A DNA stretch of 22,188 nucleotides from a virus: IMG/VR virus record IMGVR_UViG_3300035187_001745, positions 1 to 22,188 of that record; one strand, given 5' to 3'. Positions 1 to 13,713 of this stretch are shown here, in pieces. A program made the position numbers and the translations under genes. Numbering within the stretch: the stretch's first letter is position 1; every line of letters starts with the position of its first letter. Under the pieces are notes generated by a model. The model saw only the letters and a program-made list of their open reading frames with translations. It was not told the DNA's origin and did no database searches.

Positions 1-771
1 TGGCCTGATGAAGAAAACGGACGCTTTAGTGTGATATGGTTGCCCGAACCAAAGGACAGAAATAAGGTAGAGGTAATAAACGGCAAGCTACTACCTAAAA
101 ACTACTACGAAGGAGTTATCGGTGTCGACCCCGTAGGTAAGAGGTTTCTAACAGGCAAAGGCTCTGATTTTGCAGCCGTAGGTTTTAGGAGGGTATCGCA
201 AAAGTTCGACCACGATGAGAGGTTATTAGGCACAGACCCTATAAGCAATATGCCTGTATTTATATACCGATGCCGGTTGCCTAATACGGACATACACCAC
301 AAGGATATGGAGTGTGCTGCAAGGTTTTACGGGTGGCCTATCCACGCAGAGGATAACAGGGCAGAGGGCTTGATAACCCATTTTACCCATACAGATTATT
401 ACCATTACCTAATGTCAAGGCAAGCCGCTACGGGCAAATACGATTGGTTAGCCCTTGTAAAGGGAACACCCAACTACCAAAAAGAGGTACGGGAGGCGTG
501 GGTTAACTATGTAAAATCGTATATCTACGAGAATGTAGGGGTGAATGAGGAAACGGGGGGTGTTGGTAAGATATATTTCAATGCACTATTAGAAGATTTT
601 AGGGACTTTGACCCCGATGATTGGGGCCCGTATGACTTATTTGTGGCTTTTGTTTATTGCCTATCAGCCATACGAACCATAACCCAACCTAAAAAGAAAA
701 ACGATGTGCCTTTGATAGAGATGCCCCGTTACGATAATACAGGGGACAGAAGCAAGGCTATTCGTTATTAA
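1..771 (+). CDS. terL: Large terminase subunit, C-terminal nuclease part (partial)
   Basis: The gene is already open at base 1, so its ATPase half lies upstream; the GTG at 31 is internal. The visible 256 codons fit the RNase H-like nuclease domain that cuts concatemeric phage DNA during packaging. Counting from the first codon, a G-V-D-P motif (D43) followed by G-S-D-F (D56) fits the first metal-binding aspartate strand, H-A-E-D-N (E117/D118) fits the second acidic position, and G-P-Y-D-L-F-V-A-F (D212) fits the last conserved aspartate. The order and spacing of these acidic motifs are the usual ones for TerL nucleases. The product ends in a basic tail that may contact the portal or DNA. The 3' end overlaps the end of the opposite-strand gene by 14 bases, with no terminator between them. 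The family is fairly secure; the closest phage group is not. Confidence 0.85.
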   Translation, partial: WPDEENGRFSVIWLPEPKDRNKVEVINGKLLPKNYYEGVIGVDPVGKRFLTGKGSDFAAVGFRRVSQKFDHDERLLGTDPISNMPVFIYRCRLPNTDIHHKDMECAARFYGWPIHAEDNRAEGLITHFTHTDYYHYLMSRQAATGKYDWLALVKGTPNYQKEVREAWVNYVKSYIYENVGVNEETGGVGKIYFNALLEDFRDFDPDDWGPYDLFVAFVYCLSAIRTITQPKKKNDVPLIEMPRYDNTGDRSKAIRY

Positions 772-1441
772 CAGCCACTATAAACTCCATAGGGACACGC
801 CAATACATTTTATTGTCTATAACCATCTCGTACTCGCAGCTTGGTAATAAGATAGCTGTATCGCCCTCTTTTATACCTAAAACATCTTGGCTTAATTTAC
901 CAACAGCCCTAATAATACCTCTGCCCCTAACAAACCTTTCGTTTACGGTCTTTTGGTAGTCTTTGCCGTTAGCGTCTTTCTCGGTAACATATTTAACATT
1001 AAGAGAAACAATTATTCCGCTTTCAGAGATTTGCATTTCACCTTGGGGGATTGGCTCTACAAGATTATAGGTGTGAAGTGGAATTAATGCCCCATCACGT
1101 TCTAAGATAAATATTTGCGAGTACAATATCCTGTAAAGGGGCTTACCGTCTACTATTTCCTCAAAGTCCTTATCTGCTGTAAAGTGGTTAACATAAACCG
1201 TATCACCAACTTTAAGTTCAACATTCATAAGGGGTAGCTTACCGTAAGCCGTTTCGGTGGTAAGGTCGTAATGTTCGGGGACTACGGCTATCGTAGCCTT
1301 TTGATTACGGAATTGATATTTGCTAAAGGAAGAACCCTCTAACCAAATAAGGCCTGTATTGCTTCCGTCCTCACGTTTTACAAATTCATCTTCTGCGGTA
1401 TCAATAGATACATAAAAAGTATTTTTAAGCGTTCTCATCAT
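758..1441 (-). CDS. Tandem GroES/Cpn10-like co-chaperonin
   Basis: I read this 227-aa protein as two GroES-type domains in a row. Counting from the ATG at 1441, the first has an N-terminal strand (T-F-Y-V-S-I), a mobile-loop-like G-L-I-W-L-E-G-S-S (30-38), A-T-I-A-V-V-P, then L-K-V-G-D-T-V-Y-V-N (76-85) and an end like the GroES C-terminus (R-I-L-Y-S-Q-I-F-I-L). The second has S-E-S-G-I-I-V-S-L (139-147), G-I-I-R-A-V-G, I-K-E-G-D-T-A (190-196) and W-R-V-P-M-E-F-I-V-A-V at the end. In GroES the hydrophobic loop tripeptide binds GroEL and the K-V-G-D strand forms the barrel. GroES is about 97 aa and T4 gp31 111 aa, so this is twice the usual length. A TTG at 1450 could extend it, but the ATGs at 1441 and 1438 place the first strand as in GroES. 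It is the last gene of the reverse island, overlapping the previous one. Most likely role: helping host GroEL fold a phage protein, perhaps the capsid protein. Confidence 0.72.
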   Translation of the reverse strand: MMRTLKNTFYVSIDTAEDEFVKREDGSNTGLIWLEGSSFSKYQFRNQKATIAVVPEHYDLTTETAYGKLPLMNVELKVGDTVYVNHFTADKDFEEIVDGKPLYRILYSQIFILERDGALIPLHTYNLVEPIPQGEMQISESGIIVSLNVKYVTEKDANGKDYQKTVNERFVRGRGIIRAVGKLSQDVLGIKEGDTAILLPSCEYEMVIDNKMYWRVPMEFIVAVNNE

Positions 1442-1715
1442 TTGTTTCAATTTGTTGTGGTAAAAAATACTCTATACTATACGGTTGGTTCATATACTGT
1501 TTCCAAAGAAACTGTCTGCCATTACATTCGGCAAAGACATTAAAGGTAACAACAGAGAAGTTGTCCGAGTTAAACCTGTCAATAGCAATATCTACTATTT
1601 CAAGTGTCTGTTCTTTAATGATGTGTGTTTGGCCTACGGTGTGAACCATAGCATTGCGTGGGTCGTGTCCTATCTTTAGAACCCTGATAATCCCGAAGTG
1701 CGGTGAAGCGTCCAT
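1425..1715 (-). CDS. Small uncharacterised protein of the reverse island
   Basis: This 96-aa protein is not recognised. It is soluble, with no signal peptide or membrane segment, and alternates hydrophobic and polar residues as beta strands do, mainly around F-S-V-V-T-F-N-V-F. Near the end it has an aromatic stretch, L-W-K-Q-Y-M-N-Q-P-Y-S-I-E-Y (about 70-83). There is one cysteine (C64) and no recognisable catalytic motif. The ATG at 1715 directly abuts the stop of the gene before it, and the 3' end overlaps the start of the co-chaperonin-like gene by 17 bases (26 if the TTG is used). The tight packing points to translation from one mRNA with its neighbours. It could be a small structural or accessory protein, or a partner or client adaptor for the co-chaperonin; nothing in the sequence decides between these. 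Confidence 0.65.
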   Translation of the reverse strand: MDASPHFGIIRVLKIGHDPRNAMVHTVGQTHIIKEQTLEIVDIAIDRFNSDNFSVVTFNVFAECNGRQFLWKQYMNQPYSIEYFLPQQIETNDENA

Positions 1716-3829: not shown

Positions 3830-5218
3830 ATGGCAGATTTCACCCCGGGCAGTTATGCCTTATCGGAGTTAACCTCCTCTAATTTTATTTGGGCATCGAA
3901 TACCATCATGCCTTCGGTAGACCCTTCTATCGTTAAGCGTTTCGGCAACCAACGTTTTACAGACGCTATGGAGCTTATGGGCTTAACAAAAGAAATAGAC
4001 GCTATCTACCACACATGGTTTGAAGAAGATAGGATTATGCGTAAAATCGTAGCTACTACCGCAGGCGCAGCCGCAGGTGCATCAGCTACCTTTAGCATTA
4101 GCTCTACCTCTCCATCACAAAGCGTAACAATCTCACAGTATAACCCTCCATTCCCTGCGGGTGCTTCTTACACAGGTGGTTTTACCGCCAACATTAATGA
4201 CGTTATCCAAATAGCCCCTTCAACAGGTGCAAATGCGGGTACTCTTATTAAAGCCGTTGTAAAGACCGTTAACCCAACAGCAGGTACATTTACCGCAGTA
4301 CCTCTTATTGCAGCCGACAGCATCCCTGCTTTAGCTACTGCAACAGAGATACCTATTATCGGTACTGCTAATCCTGAGGTTTCTTCTGACCCATACCCTG
4401 AGGCATACCGTGTGAATGAGTACAACAACAATATGCACAAGCATCGTAAGTTGTTTGAAATTTCACAAACTGCCGCAGGTATCCAAACATGGATTTCATC
4501 ATCTGATGGCAAGCGTTATTGGCAAGCATCGGGTGAGGAAAACACCTACATTCAGTTCCTTAACCAACGTGATTTGTTGTGCTTGCTTTCAGAAGCAACA
4601 GACAACGCTGCCGTAAGCGACATTACCAACGCTACTTCAACTACCAACGGTGTAATCCCACAGGTACTTGCAAGCGGCTACACTCAATCATACACTTTGG
4701 CTAACGGTTTTACCGTTGCTAACTTCCAAAGCATGATTAGCGGTATCGAGCTTAACAAAGGCGCACGTGAGTATATGGGCTTAATGGGCGGTAACCTATA
4801 CCGTTCTATTGAGGTTAACTTAGCCGATTTCTTCAAAAACGGTGCAATTACCTATGGTATGTTTGCAGGCGACCAAGAGAAATTCGTTTCGCTTAACTTC
4901 AAACAACTATCGTGGTCAGGTTATGTATTTAACTTCAAAAACTACGAGTTGTTCAACGATTACCAAACCCTTGCTTCAACAGGTCAGCCATTCCGTAACG
5001 AAGGCTTACTAATCCCTATGTCGGGTGTTAATGCAGGTGGCGAAAAATCGTTCTCTGTTGAATTACTATACCAACGCGGTCAACGTATGGAGCAAGCGGT
5101 AATCAATCCGTTCCAAACTACCGATGATGGTAAAGACGTTATCAAGTTCCGTTACAAATCAGCCTTTATGCCAGTAGTGCGTGCGGCAGGTCAAGCGGCT
5201 TACATCTTGGCATCGTAA
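3830..5218 (+). CDS. Major capsid protein
   Basis: This 462-aa protein is read as the HK97-fold shell protein of a Bacteroidota podovirus. The N-terminal part (about 20-75) holds N-T-I-M-P-S-V-D-P-S-I-V-K-R-F-G-N and a charged helix, E-E-D-R-I-M-R-K-I. Residues 77-185 are a Gly/Ala/Ser/Thr-rich, beta-looking insertion, possibly a domain exposed on the capsid surface. The core resumes at D-P-Y-P-E-A-Y-R-V-N (187-196), and the C-terminal part contains F-N-F-K-N-Y-E-L-F-N-D-Y and a closing R-A-A-G-Q-A-A-Y-I-L-A. The length, the position after a scaffold-like gene and the strong intrinsic terminator just behind it, as for a highly expressed gene, all agree. Translation starts after an A-only leader. 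No prohead protease is fused to it or visible nearby. Confidence 0.82.
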   Translation: MADFTPGSYALSELTSSNFIWASNTIMPSVDPSIVKRFGNQRFTDAMELMGLTKEIDAIYHTWFEEDRIMRKIVATTAGAAAGASATFSISSTSPSQSVTISQYNPPFPAGASYTGGFTANINDVIQIAPSTGANAGTLIKAVVKTVNPTAGTFTAVPLIAADSIPALATATEIPIIGTANPEVSSDPYPEAYRVNEYNNNMHKHRKLFEISQTAAGIQTWISSSDGKRYWQASGEENTYIQFLNQRDLLCLLSEATDNAAVSDITNATSTTNGVIPQVLASGYTQSYTLANGFTVANFQSMISGIELNKGAREYMGLMGGNLYRSIEVNLADFFKNGAITYGMFAGDQEKFVSLNFKQLSWSGYVFNFKNYELFNDYQTLASTGQPFRNEGLLIPMSGVNAGGEKSFSVELLYQRGQRMEQAVINPFQTTDDGKDVIKFRYKSAFMPVVRAAGQAAYILAS

Positions 5219-11454: not shown

Positions 11455-13713
11455 ATGCCATTTTTTCAATACCCGAATGAGTTTGTAAGCGACGAGGAGA
11501 AACAACAGCCCGAATACGGCAAGAAATTCTTTGATGCTGTGTGGTCGCAGTTTGGCGGGTGGAAGGTATATTCTGAACGCAGAAACCGTATGTTAGACCT
11601 ACGCAGGTGGCGTAGTGGTGGTCAGTCTATACAGGACATGAAAGACCTTATGGGAACTGCGGGAGATACCTCTTGGCTGAACTTAGATTGGGAGCCGAAT
11701 AGGACTATCCTTGAAAAATCAGATAGGATAATAGAATACCTATGCCAAAAGCAATATAAGGTAACGTGCGATGGTGCGGATAGCCTATCTATCAATGAAA
11801 AAGACAAGGCAAGGAAAAAGCTGTATGCTAAGGCTATGCTTAAACCATACAGGCAACAGTTTGAGGAGGAGTACAACATTAAATTACAATCCTCTTTAGA
11901 AGAAGATTTTGATACCAAAGAGGACGTAGACGTATTTATGGAGGGCGAGTTTAAGCTATCCGTAGAGGTTGCTATGGAACTCGGTATTAACTATTTCTTA
12001 AAGCTAAACAGGTTTCAAGATATACGCAGAAAGCTATATGATGATTTGTGGACTGTTGGGAAAGCTGTTACGCACGTTTCTACCGATGGGGAAACTATTA
12101 CCGTTAAATATGTAGATGCTGTAAACGCTATCCTGCCACAAACCAAGTCTAATAACTTTATGAACGCTAAGTATATATGCCATATAGAGTGGCTGACACT
12201 TGGCGATATTCGTAGGGCTGCGGGAACACAGATTAGCGATGAGCAATACTTAGAGATAGCAAGGGTAGCAGCTTGTTATAACGATACAGGAATATGGGGC
12301 TATAATTTAGGCAATGGTGCTTACTACCAAACCTCAATTACCAACTACCAAGAGTGGGACAACTTAGACGTTCCTGTTTTAATGGGTGAGTTTAGGGCAG
12401 CAGCAAATATATCTTACGAAAGCAAGACTAATCACTTTGGCAGAAAGAGTGTTTACAGGGCTAAGGGGGATGTGGTAGCTACCGATAAGCATTACCGTAT
12501 AGACAAAGAGGTGGAGTATGTTTACACGGGTTGTTACATTCCTGATTTACAGATTATATACAACTACGGCAAAAAACCATTCCAACCAAGAGATAGGTTT
12601 AACGGCAAATATGATTTAACAGGCAAATTGGGTTACTGTGTTTACCAACCTAATAACTACGACAATTTCAATGTAAGCCCTGTGATGCGTATGATAACCT
12701 ATGCCAAGAAAATGAACTTGGTAGAGTTGCGTATGCAGCACTTGATAGCTAAGGCAAGCCCCGGCGGTTATGCTGTGAATGTTAGTGCCTTATTAGAACT
12801 AAAAGAGTTTGTAAAGGATATTAAAAACCCTTTAGATGCTATGTCTATGTTCTTACAGACAGGTATCTTATTCTATAAAGGACAGAAAGACGATGGCTCA
12901 CCAAGCCCAAGCCCATTAACCTATACACAAGGTATTGATTTGGCGCAGCTAAACAGCCTAATGCAACAATACGAGTGGGCAAGGAATGAATTAGAAAGAA
13001 GCATAGGCGGACAGGCTGTTGGTATGGGCGCAGCAGCACCCGATAGGGCTGCCGTTGGTGTGCAGGAGATGGCACAGATGGCTTCCGATAACGCACTTGG
13101 CCCTGTAAGTTACGGGGTGGAGGATATTACGGTGCGTATGTGTACTCAGATAAGCCGATTTATACAATACCTACAAAAAGAGGGTACGCTGAAAAACTAC
13201 TCTTTAGCGTTCACCACCGAAAATCAAAGTGTGGTAAAAGATATGGACGAGTTGCCTATGAGGGACTTTAACATATTTGTAAAATACGCCTTAGATTTAA
13301 GGGAGAGGGCTTATTTGGAACAGCAGTTGCAGGCTATGATAGAAAGGGGAGAACTACGCCCCGAAGATGCTTTTTGGATAAGGGAAACCGACGATTTGAA
13401 GTTAGCCTATATGTATATGCGTAAGCAGCGCACCAAGCTACAACAAGAGAAAATGGCTATGGTTCAGCAGACAGGGGAGGAACAAAGAATGAGCGCACAG
13501 TCGGCAGAACAAAGCAAGCAACAGACCTTAGAGGTAGAGGCGCAATTAGATATACAGACCTATGCGGCTAAGAAAGAGATAGACAAAAAGTACGAGGAGT
13601 ATATGCACCAATTGGAAATGCAAAAGATAGAAGCACAGGCTATGGCTAAATACAAAACAGCTATGGACGTAGCGGGGAGTAAAGCTATGCAACAAAGCGA
13701 CTTAGTAAAATAA
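11455..13713 (+). CDS. Portal protein
   Basis: The 752-aa protein has the length and layout of portals of crAss-like and related phages, the dodecameric gate through which DNA enters and leaves the head. The N-terminus has N-L-D-W-E-P-N-R-T-I-L (76-86), where such portals place a conserved stretch. R-R-K-L-Y-D-D-L-W-T-V-G-K-A-V-T-H-V (191-208) and the following K-Y-V-D-A-V-N strand fit the wing. A G-G-Q-A-V-G-M-G-A-A-A-P-D-R-A-A-V-G segment lies in the last third, where the stem/crown transition is expected. From about residue 653 on the protein is a Gln/Glu/Lys/Ala-rich helix, probably the barrel that enters the head. It sits among connector genes and is linked to the muzzle gene by TAATG. 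In many related phages the portal lies next to the terminase; here they are over 10 kb apart. Confidence 0.78.
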   Translation: MPFFQYPNEFVSDEEKQQPEYGKKFFDAVWSQFGGWKVYSERRNRMLDLRRWRSGGQSIQDMKDLMGTAGDTSWLNLDWEPNRTILEKSDRIIEYLCQKQYKVTCDGADSLSINEKDKARKKLYAKAMLKPYRQQFEEEYNIKLQSSLEEDFDTKEDVDVFMEGEFKLSVEVAMELGINYFLKLNRFQDIRRKLYDDLWTVGKAVTHVSTDGETITVKYVDAVNAILPQTKSNNFMNAKYICHIEWLTLGDIRRAAGTQISDEQYLEIARVAACYNDTGIWGYNLGNGAYYQTSITNYQEWDNLDVPVLMGEFRAAANISYESKTNHFGRKSVYRAKGDVVATDKHYRIDKEVEYVYTGCYIPDLQIIYNYGKKPFQPRDRFNGKYDLTGKLGYCVYQPNNYDNFNVSPVMRMITYAKKMNLVELRMQHLIAKASPGGYAVNVSALLELKEFVKDIKNPLDAMSMFLQTGILFYKGQKDDGSPSPSPLTYTQGIDLAQLNSLMQQYEWARNELERSIGGQAVGMGAAAPDRAAVGVQEMAQMASDNALGPVSYGVEDITVRMCTQISRFIQYLQKEGTLKNYSLAFTTENQSVVKDMDELPMRDFNIFVKYALDLRERAYLEQQLQAMIERGELRPEDAFWIRETDDLKLAYMYMRKQRTKLQQEKMAMVQQTGEEQRMSAQSAEQSKQQTLEVEAQLDIQTYAAKKEIDKKYEEYMHQLEMQKIEAQAMAKYKTAMDVAGSKAMQQSDLVK

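Follow-up and report, generated by a model that had tools for sequence, protein, structure and literature searches.

Can a phage encode a co-chaperonin with two GroES domains on one chain, and how would such a chain fit the seven-fold chaperonin that it caps? The window analyzed here, a 22,188-base IMG/VR virus record (a 22-kb fragment), raises this question through a minus-strand gene at 758-1441 that encodes 227 aa from an ATG at 1441 and that the original prediction had described as two GroES domains in tandem. We find that the protein is a real tandem co-chaperonin, divergent within a phage family that already carries an annotation. Our overall reading, which we consider probable, is that its two head-to-tail GroES barrels form a Cpn20-like, terminase-adjacent orthologue of the phi38:1-type GroES proteins and serve as a GroEL lid that aids virion-protein folding. 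The features concerned are the following:

758-1441, minus strand: tandem co-chaperonin with two GroES (Cpn10) domains, 227 aa (family HMM, PHROG, AlphaFold2/Foldseek/VIA, domain profiles)
1088-1441, minus strand: domain 1, GroES barrel, residues 1-118, approximate boundary (39.4 bits with the N-domain HMM of the nearest relatives; tree support 99/97)
1301-1372, minus strand: mobile loop of domain 1 with the GLIWL motif, residues 24-47 (low pLDDT; aligned with the loop of the relatives)
1202-1261, minus strand: roof-hairpin-like segment of domain 1, residues 61-80 (model strands 61-64 and 67-70)
761-1087, minus strand: domain 2, GroES barrel, residues 119-227 (Pfam Cpn10 below cut-off; VIA; 26.4 bits with the C-domain HMM)
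920-1033, minus strand: long mobile loop of domain 2 with the SGIIVSL motif, residues 137-174 (46-residue loop segment)
1425-1715, minus strand: 96-aa gene directly upstream of and overlapping the tandem gene (upstream-gene HMM, E 1e-5; BLASTP to relative L241, E 1e-6)
1-771, plus strand: terminase large subunit, C-terminal part, convergent neighbor (PHROG 6681, E 4e-17; ~25-29% identity to phi38:1-type terminases)
3830-5218, plus strand: major capsid protein (position; PHROG 13704 'virion structural protein', E 7e-23; aligned with phi38:1-type capsid proteins)

Starts of the tandem gene at ATG 1438 or TTG 1450 are also possible; from either ATG (1441 or 1438), the gene begins within the final part of the 96-aa gene before it. 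The loop motifs had been placed exactly (GLIWLEGSS at 1328-1354, SGIIVSLN at 998-1021), while the barrel-strand motifs had been placed 3 bases off; their corrected coordinates are 1199-1213 for KVGDT and 857-871 for KEGDT.

Profile comparisons with each half identified both domains. An HMM of the tandem family, built without the window protein, matched the full-length sequence with 34.5 bits (E 3.5e-9 among 4361 ORFs). Against domain HMMs of the four nearest relatives (L235, L236, L239, L241), the N half scored 39.4 bits with the N-domain model and the C half 26.4 bits with the C-domain model; none of 1000 shuffles reached either score, and the crossed pairs (N on C, C on N) were not outstanding. 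The C-domain HMM of the wider family matched both halves (N 22.0 and C 25.8 bits, the best of 1000 shuffles scoring 9.6), and HHalign placed the N half on the family C-domain profile at 92%. The PHROGs search matched the protein to two 'co-chaperonin GroES' families, with PHROG 13932 at E 3.9e-6. A profile search of PDB sequences returned co-chaperonins as all of its top five chains; phmmer with the single window protein returned no relevant chain from the same sequences.

Pfam Cpn10 (PF00166) reached 15.2 bits on the window protein against a curated cut-off of 21.1 and saw the C half alone (E 0.022-0.053, below the cut-off), and the isolated N half gave no Pfam match. All four nearest relatives exceed this cut-off with two stretches each (three at 44-54 bits, L241 at 26 bits), and for each of their isolated N halves the best Pfam match is Cpn10, at E 0.009-0.037 and below the cut-off. 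HHalign aligned the family C domain with host GroES at 95-96% and found no match to host GroES for the family N-domain alignment. Given these Pfam and HHalign nulls, the case for the N domain rests on the internal repeat, the nearest relatives and the structure.

The AlphaFold2 model of the window protein is of moderate confidence (pLDDT 75, pTM 0.70, 48 sequences), with pLDDT falling below 50 in the domain-1 mobile loop (residues 17-24 and 26-41); the model of phi38:1 gp89 reached pLDDT 87.6 and pTM 0.80. In Foldseek searches against the PDB, the top matches were 7ekq_R and 7ekq_Q for the window model and 7ekq_R for the gp89 model, the other top matches in both cases being single GroES chains. 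Chain 7ekq_R is Cpn20 by its sequence-file name, and 7ekq_Q we take to be Cpn23 from the three Chlamydomonas co-chaperonins and the chain length. VIA alignments to 7ekq_R cover both domains of both models (window: Z 9.5, rmsd 6.0, 166 residues aligned; gp89: Z 10.5, rmsd 4.2, 163 aligned), so that each predicted domain shows the GroES beta-barrel fold; the way in which the domains are placed probably accounts for the large rmsd. Domain 2 (residues 118-227) aligned with GroES chains at VIA Z 8-10 and a Foldseek probability of 1.00, and the best viral structure matches include phage proteins of two-domain size, such as the phi18:3 Cpn10. That GroES is confined to the C half, the N half being an unrelated beta domain that looks like a repeat by chance, would agree with the Pfam and HHalign nulls just given, but is very improbable in view of the N half's 22.0 bits on the family C-domain profile (0/1000 shuffles, HHalign 92%), the Cpn10 top match of all four relatives' N halves and the Cpn20 alignment over both domains.

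The tandem pair and its likeness to Cpn20, both proposed in the original prediction, are thus borne out. Chloroplast Cpn20/Cpn23 is likewise a head-to-tail GroES pair and gives the best fold match over both domains, although it is a plastid protein with ~15% identity to the window protein. We presume that the phage tandem and plastid Cpn20 likely arose by independent duplication; the domain tree contains no Cpn20 rows. T4 gp31 is also a phage co-chaperonin of GroES fold and aligned with the C domain at VIA Z 7.3 (1g31_A) and 8.1 (2cgt_O); unlike the two-domain window protein, it is a single-domain homo-heptamer without roof loops (PMC6318259).

The family is not new to databases: it corresponds to PHROG 13932, its members in phages of Cellulophaga, Flavobacterium and Maribacter carry the annotation 'co-chaperonin GroES', and relatives are encoded on at least 597 IMG/VR stretches. 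A direct search with the window tandem protein found no match in phages or viral contigs, and as single-sequence queries the capsid and portal proteins found none in viral contigs, nor the capsid protein in phages; the relatives were reached by way of the portal among annotated phages and by means of alignments. The portal and terminase place the record near Cellulophaga phi38:1, Flavobacterium elemo and Maribacter Panino phages, in line with the Bacteroidota-type phage that had been predicted. Phi38:1 gp89, elemo gp30 and phi19:3 gp101 share with the window protein the tandem two-domain layout and a gene beside the terminase, at ~20% identity. Two features set the window protein apart from them: domain 1 contains a segment that resembles a roof hairpin, and the loop of domain 2 is long and carries the motif. 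The segment at 1202-1261, which we would call a roof hairpin on the strength of the model, is mostly absent from the phi38:1-type family.

In the domain tree all N domains, that of the window included, form one group (99/97), and the window C domain falls with the family C domains (94/81), a placement to be read with caution for long branches. This pairing of N with N and C with C, which holds for the phi38:1-type phages as well, indicates that the duplication is old and shared. A separate, later duplication in the window lineage, suggested by the likeness of the N half to the family C domain, was rejected in view of the tree and the nearest-relative profiles. We do not read the 27 loci from genome assemblies as prophages, since all of them lie in metagenome bins. 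L190 (CP070801.1) is a tandem GroES phage locus within a 1-Mb contig labeled as an Aenigmatarchaeota chromosome, possibly a chimeric assembly.

The co-chaperonin reading is also supported by orthologues lying beside the terminase. Most relatives, the phi38:1-type phages among them, carry a ~75-aa gene directly ahead of the tandem GroES gene, and the 96-aa gene of the window is its homologue; an ORF ends within 60 bases of the tandem gene in 129 of 138 relatives. The ~75-aa gene often overlaps the tandem gene (for example L026:7747-7971 and L146:5668-5886), and its product is a possible partner of the lid. In phi38:1/elemo/Panino-type phages the 'co-chaperonin GroES' measures ~180-200 aa and is encoded upstream of terminase and portal. 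Both elements of the PHROG 13932 context, the terminase and the small upstream gene, are present in the window; unlike in phi38:1, elemo and phi19:3, however, the window has its two-gene cassette in inverted orientation on the far side of the terminase, downstream of it, in the stretch 758-2635 between the terminase and capsid genes. The portal gene, which adjoins the terminase in relatives, lies ~10 kb downstream of it in the window (11455-13713).

The tandem gene ends a minus-strand island headed by a 78-aa helix-turn-helix (Cro/C1-type) regulator (2402-2635), with a 228-aa gene at 1719-2402 in the same island that had no Pfam match and no convincing PHROG match. The closest relative by capsid protein, L234, also carries minus-strand genes at the corresponding place, none of them GroES; one, a 346-aa ORF (L234:3117-4154, minus strand), resembles by eye an MT-A70-type adenine methyltransferase (DPPW motif).

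Both loops of the window protein carry, at the sequence level, a hydrophobic motif resembling those that bind GroEL, GLIWL in domain 1 and SGIIVSL in domain 2. The N-domain motif is kept in 117 of 138 relatives under a loose pattern. The C-domain motif is found in 21 of 138, and the domain-2 loop segment, 46 residues long in the window, measures 18-20 residues in most of the family. The expectation of two GroEL-binding-type loops holds for the window protein and, by eye, for the relatives nearest to it; most family members, with their short second loop, do not fulfil it.

Phages with the tandem protein commonly encode the chaperonin itself. GroEL is present in 21 of 25 tandem-carrying phage records (24 distinct phages, phi38:1 being counted twice), and a separate single-domain GroES, counted as a match in an open frame of up to ~103 aa, in 23 of 25, mostly near GroEL. 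This single-domain GroES (PHROG 3188, for example elemo gp44) shares its domain with the tandem protein and occurs in the same phages; in contrast to the tandem protein, it has one domain of ~83-100 aa. Together, GroEL, single GroES and tandem GroES make the same three-part set as chloroplast Cpn60/Cpn10/Cpn20, a correspondence that is new here. GroEL had been reported in this group of phages (PMC5332604) and GroEL plus GroES in the Panino phage (PMC11590407), the passages found in both sources making no mention of a tandem form. Within the window record, a 22-kb fragment, we found neither GroEL nor single-domain GroES; GroEL is present in 2 of 12 fragments found through the window capsid protein, incomplete records from which little can be concluded.

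A true tandem GroES fold might no longer act as a GroEL lid and might instead be a structural or assembly factor, working for instance with the terminase or the small upstream protein. The conserved position beside the terminase and behind the small gene fits such a role, as do the short second loop with its motif lost in most relatives and the GroEL and single-domain GroES already present in most of them. Against it, the N-domain loop motif persists in most relatives and motifs occur in both window domains, a lid component would be expected to occur together with GroEL, as this protein does, and the phi18:3 record, which marks virion proteins by mass spectrometry, leaves the GroES gene unmarked. 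We regard this alternative as improbable.

Beyond the sequence, predicted fold and gene neighborhood, we infer the capping of GroEL, its stoichiometry and its client as follows. The tandem protein would cap the seven-fold GroEL ring through its mobile loops. A GroEL ring has seven sites, and the ring of half as many subunits suggested earlier therefore does not fit. The separate single-domain GroES of the relatives suggests a mixed lid: most likely, the seven domains would come from three tandem chains together with one GroES of the single-domain type, made by phage or host, which is the simplest route to that number. Alternatively, four tandem chains could form a homo-oligomeric lid of eight domains, one of them idle, without a single-domain partner. 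Chloroplast Cpn20 offers precedents, as six- and eight-domain lids work, the latter in vitro, and in E. coli PfCpn20 can by itself stand in for GroES; the native chloroplast lid, however, probably combines different subunits to reach seven domains (PMC5780408). Together with the separate single-domain GroES of 23 of 25 records, this makes the four-chain lid rather unlikely in our judgment.

The tandem protein would help to fold an abundant virion protein, and the major capsid protein at 3830-5218 is a possible client, by analogy with T4 gp31, a phage lid serving the capsid protein gp23 (PMC6318259); the bias of the folding chamber toward the capsid protein that the original prediction put forward is hypothetical. 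The most far-reaching proposal, that this group of Bacteroidota phages carries a full three-part chaperonin with an asymmetric 3 + 1, seven-domain lid, evolved independently and in parallel to chloroplasts and folding head proteins, we advance tentatively and with less than even confidence.

No description of the tandem GroES architecture in phages was found in a search that covered the open literature other than preprints; the two-domain architecture and its three-part context thus appear undescribed in the literature searched. The original prediction, which knew of no account of this form in a Bacteroidota phage, was right about the layout; the family itself is widespread and annotated as GroES. 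If the proposed function is true, the tandem form would be a second architecture, beside single-domain gp31, for phage takeover of host folding. How paired-domain lids fit a seven-fold chaperonin is a standing question in chloroplasts (PMC5780408). In cultured phages such as phi38:1 and elemo, a small genome appears to encode all three parts, which would make lid stoichiometry and client choice accessible to phage genetics and biochemistry.

In many Bacteroidota genomes the normal GroES is accompanied by a longer open frame of ~130-180 aa that also matches Cpn10, though less strongly.
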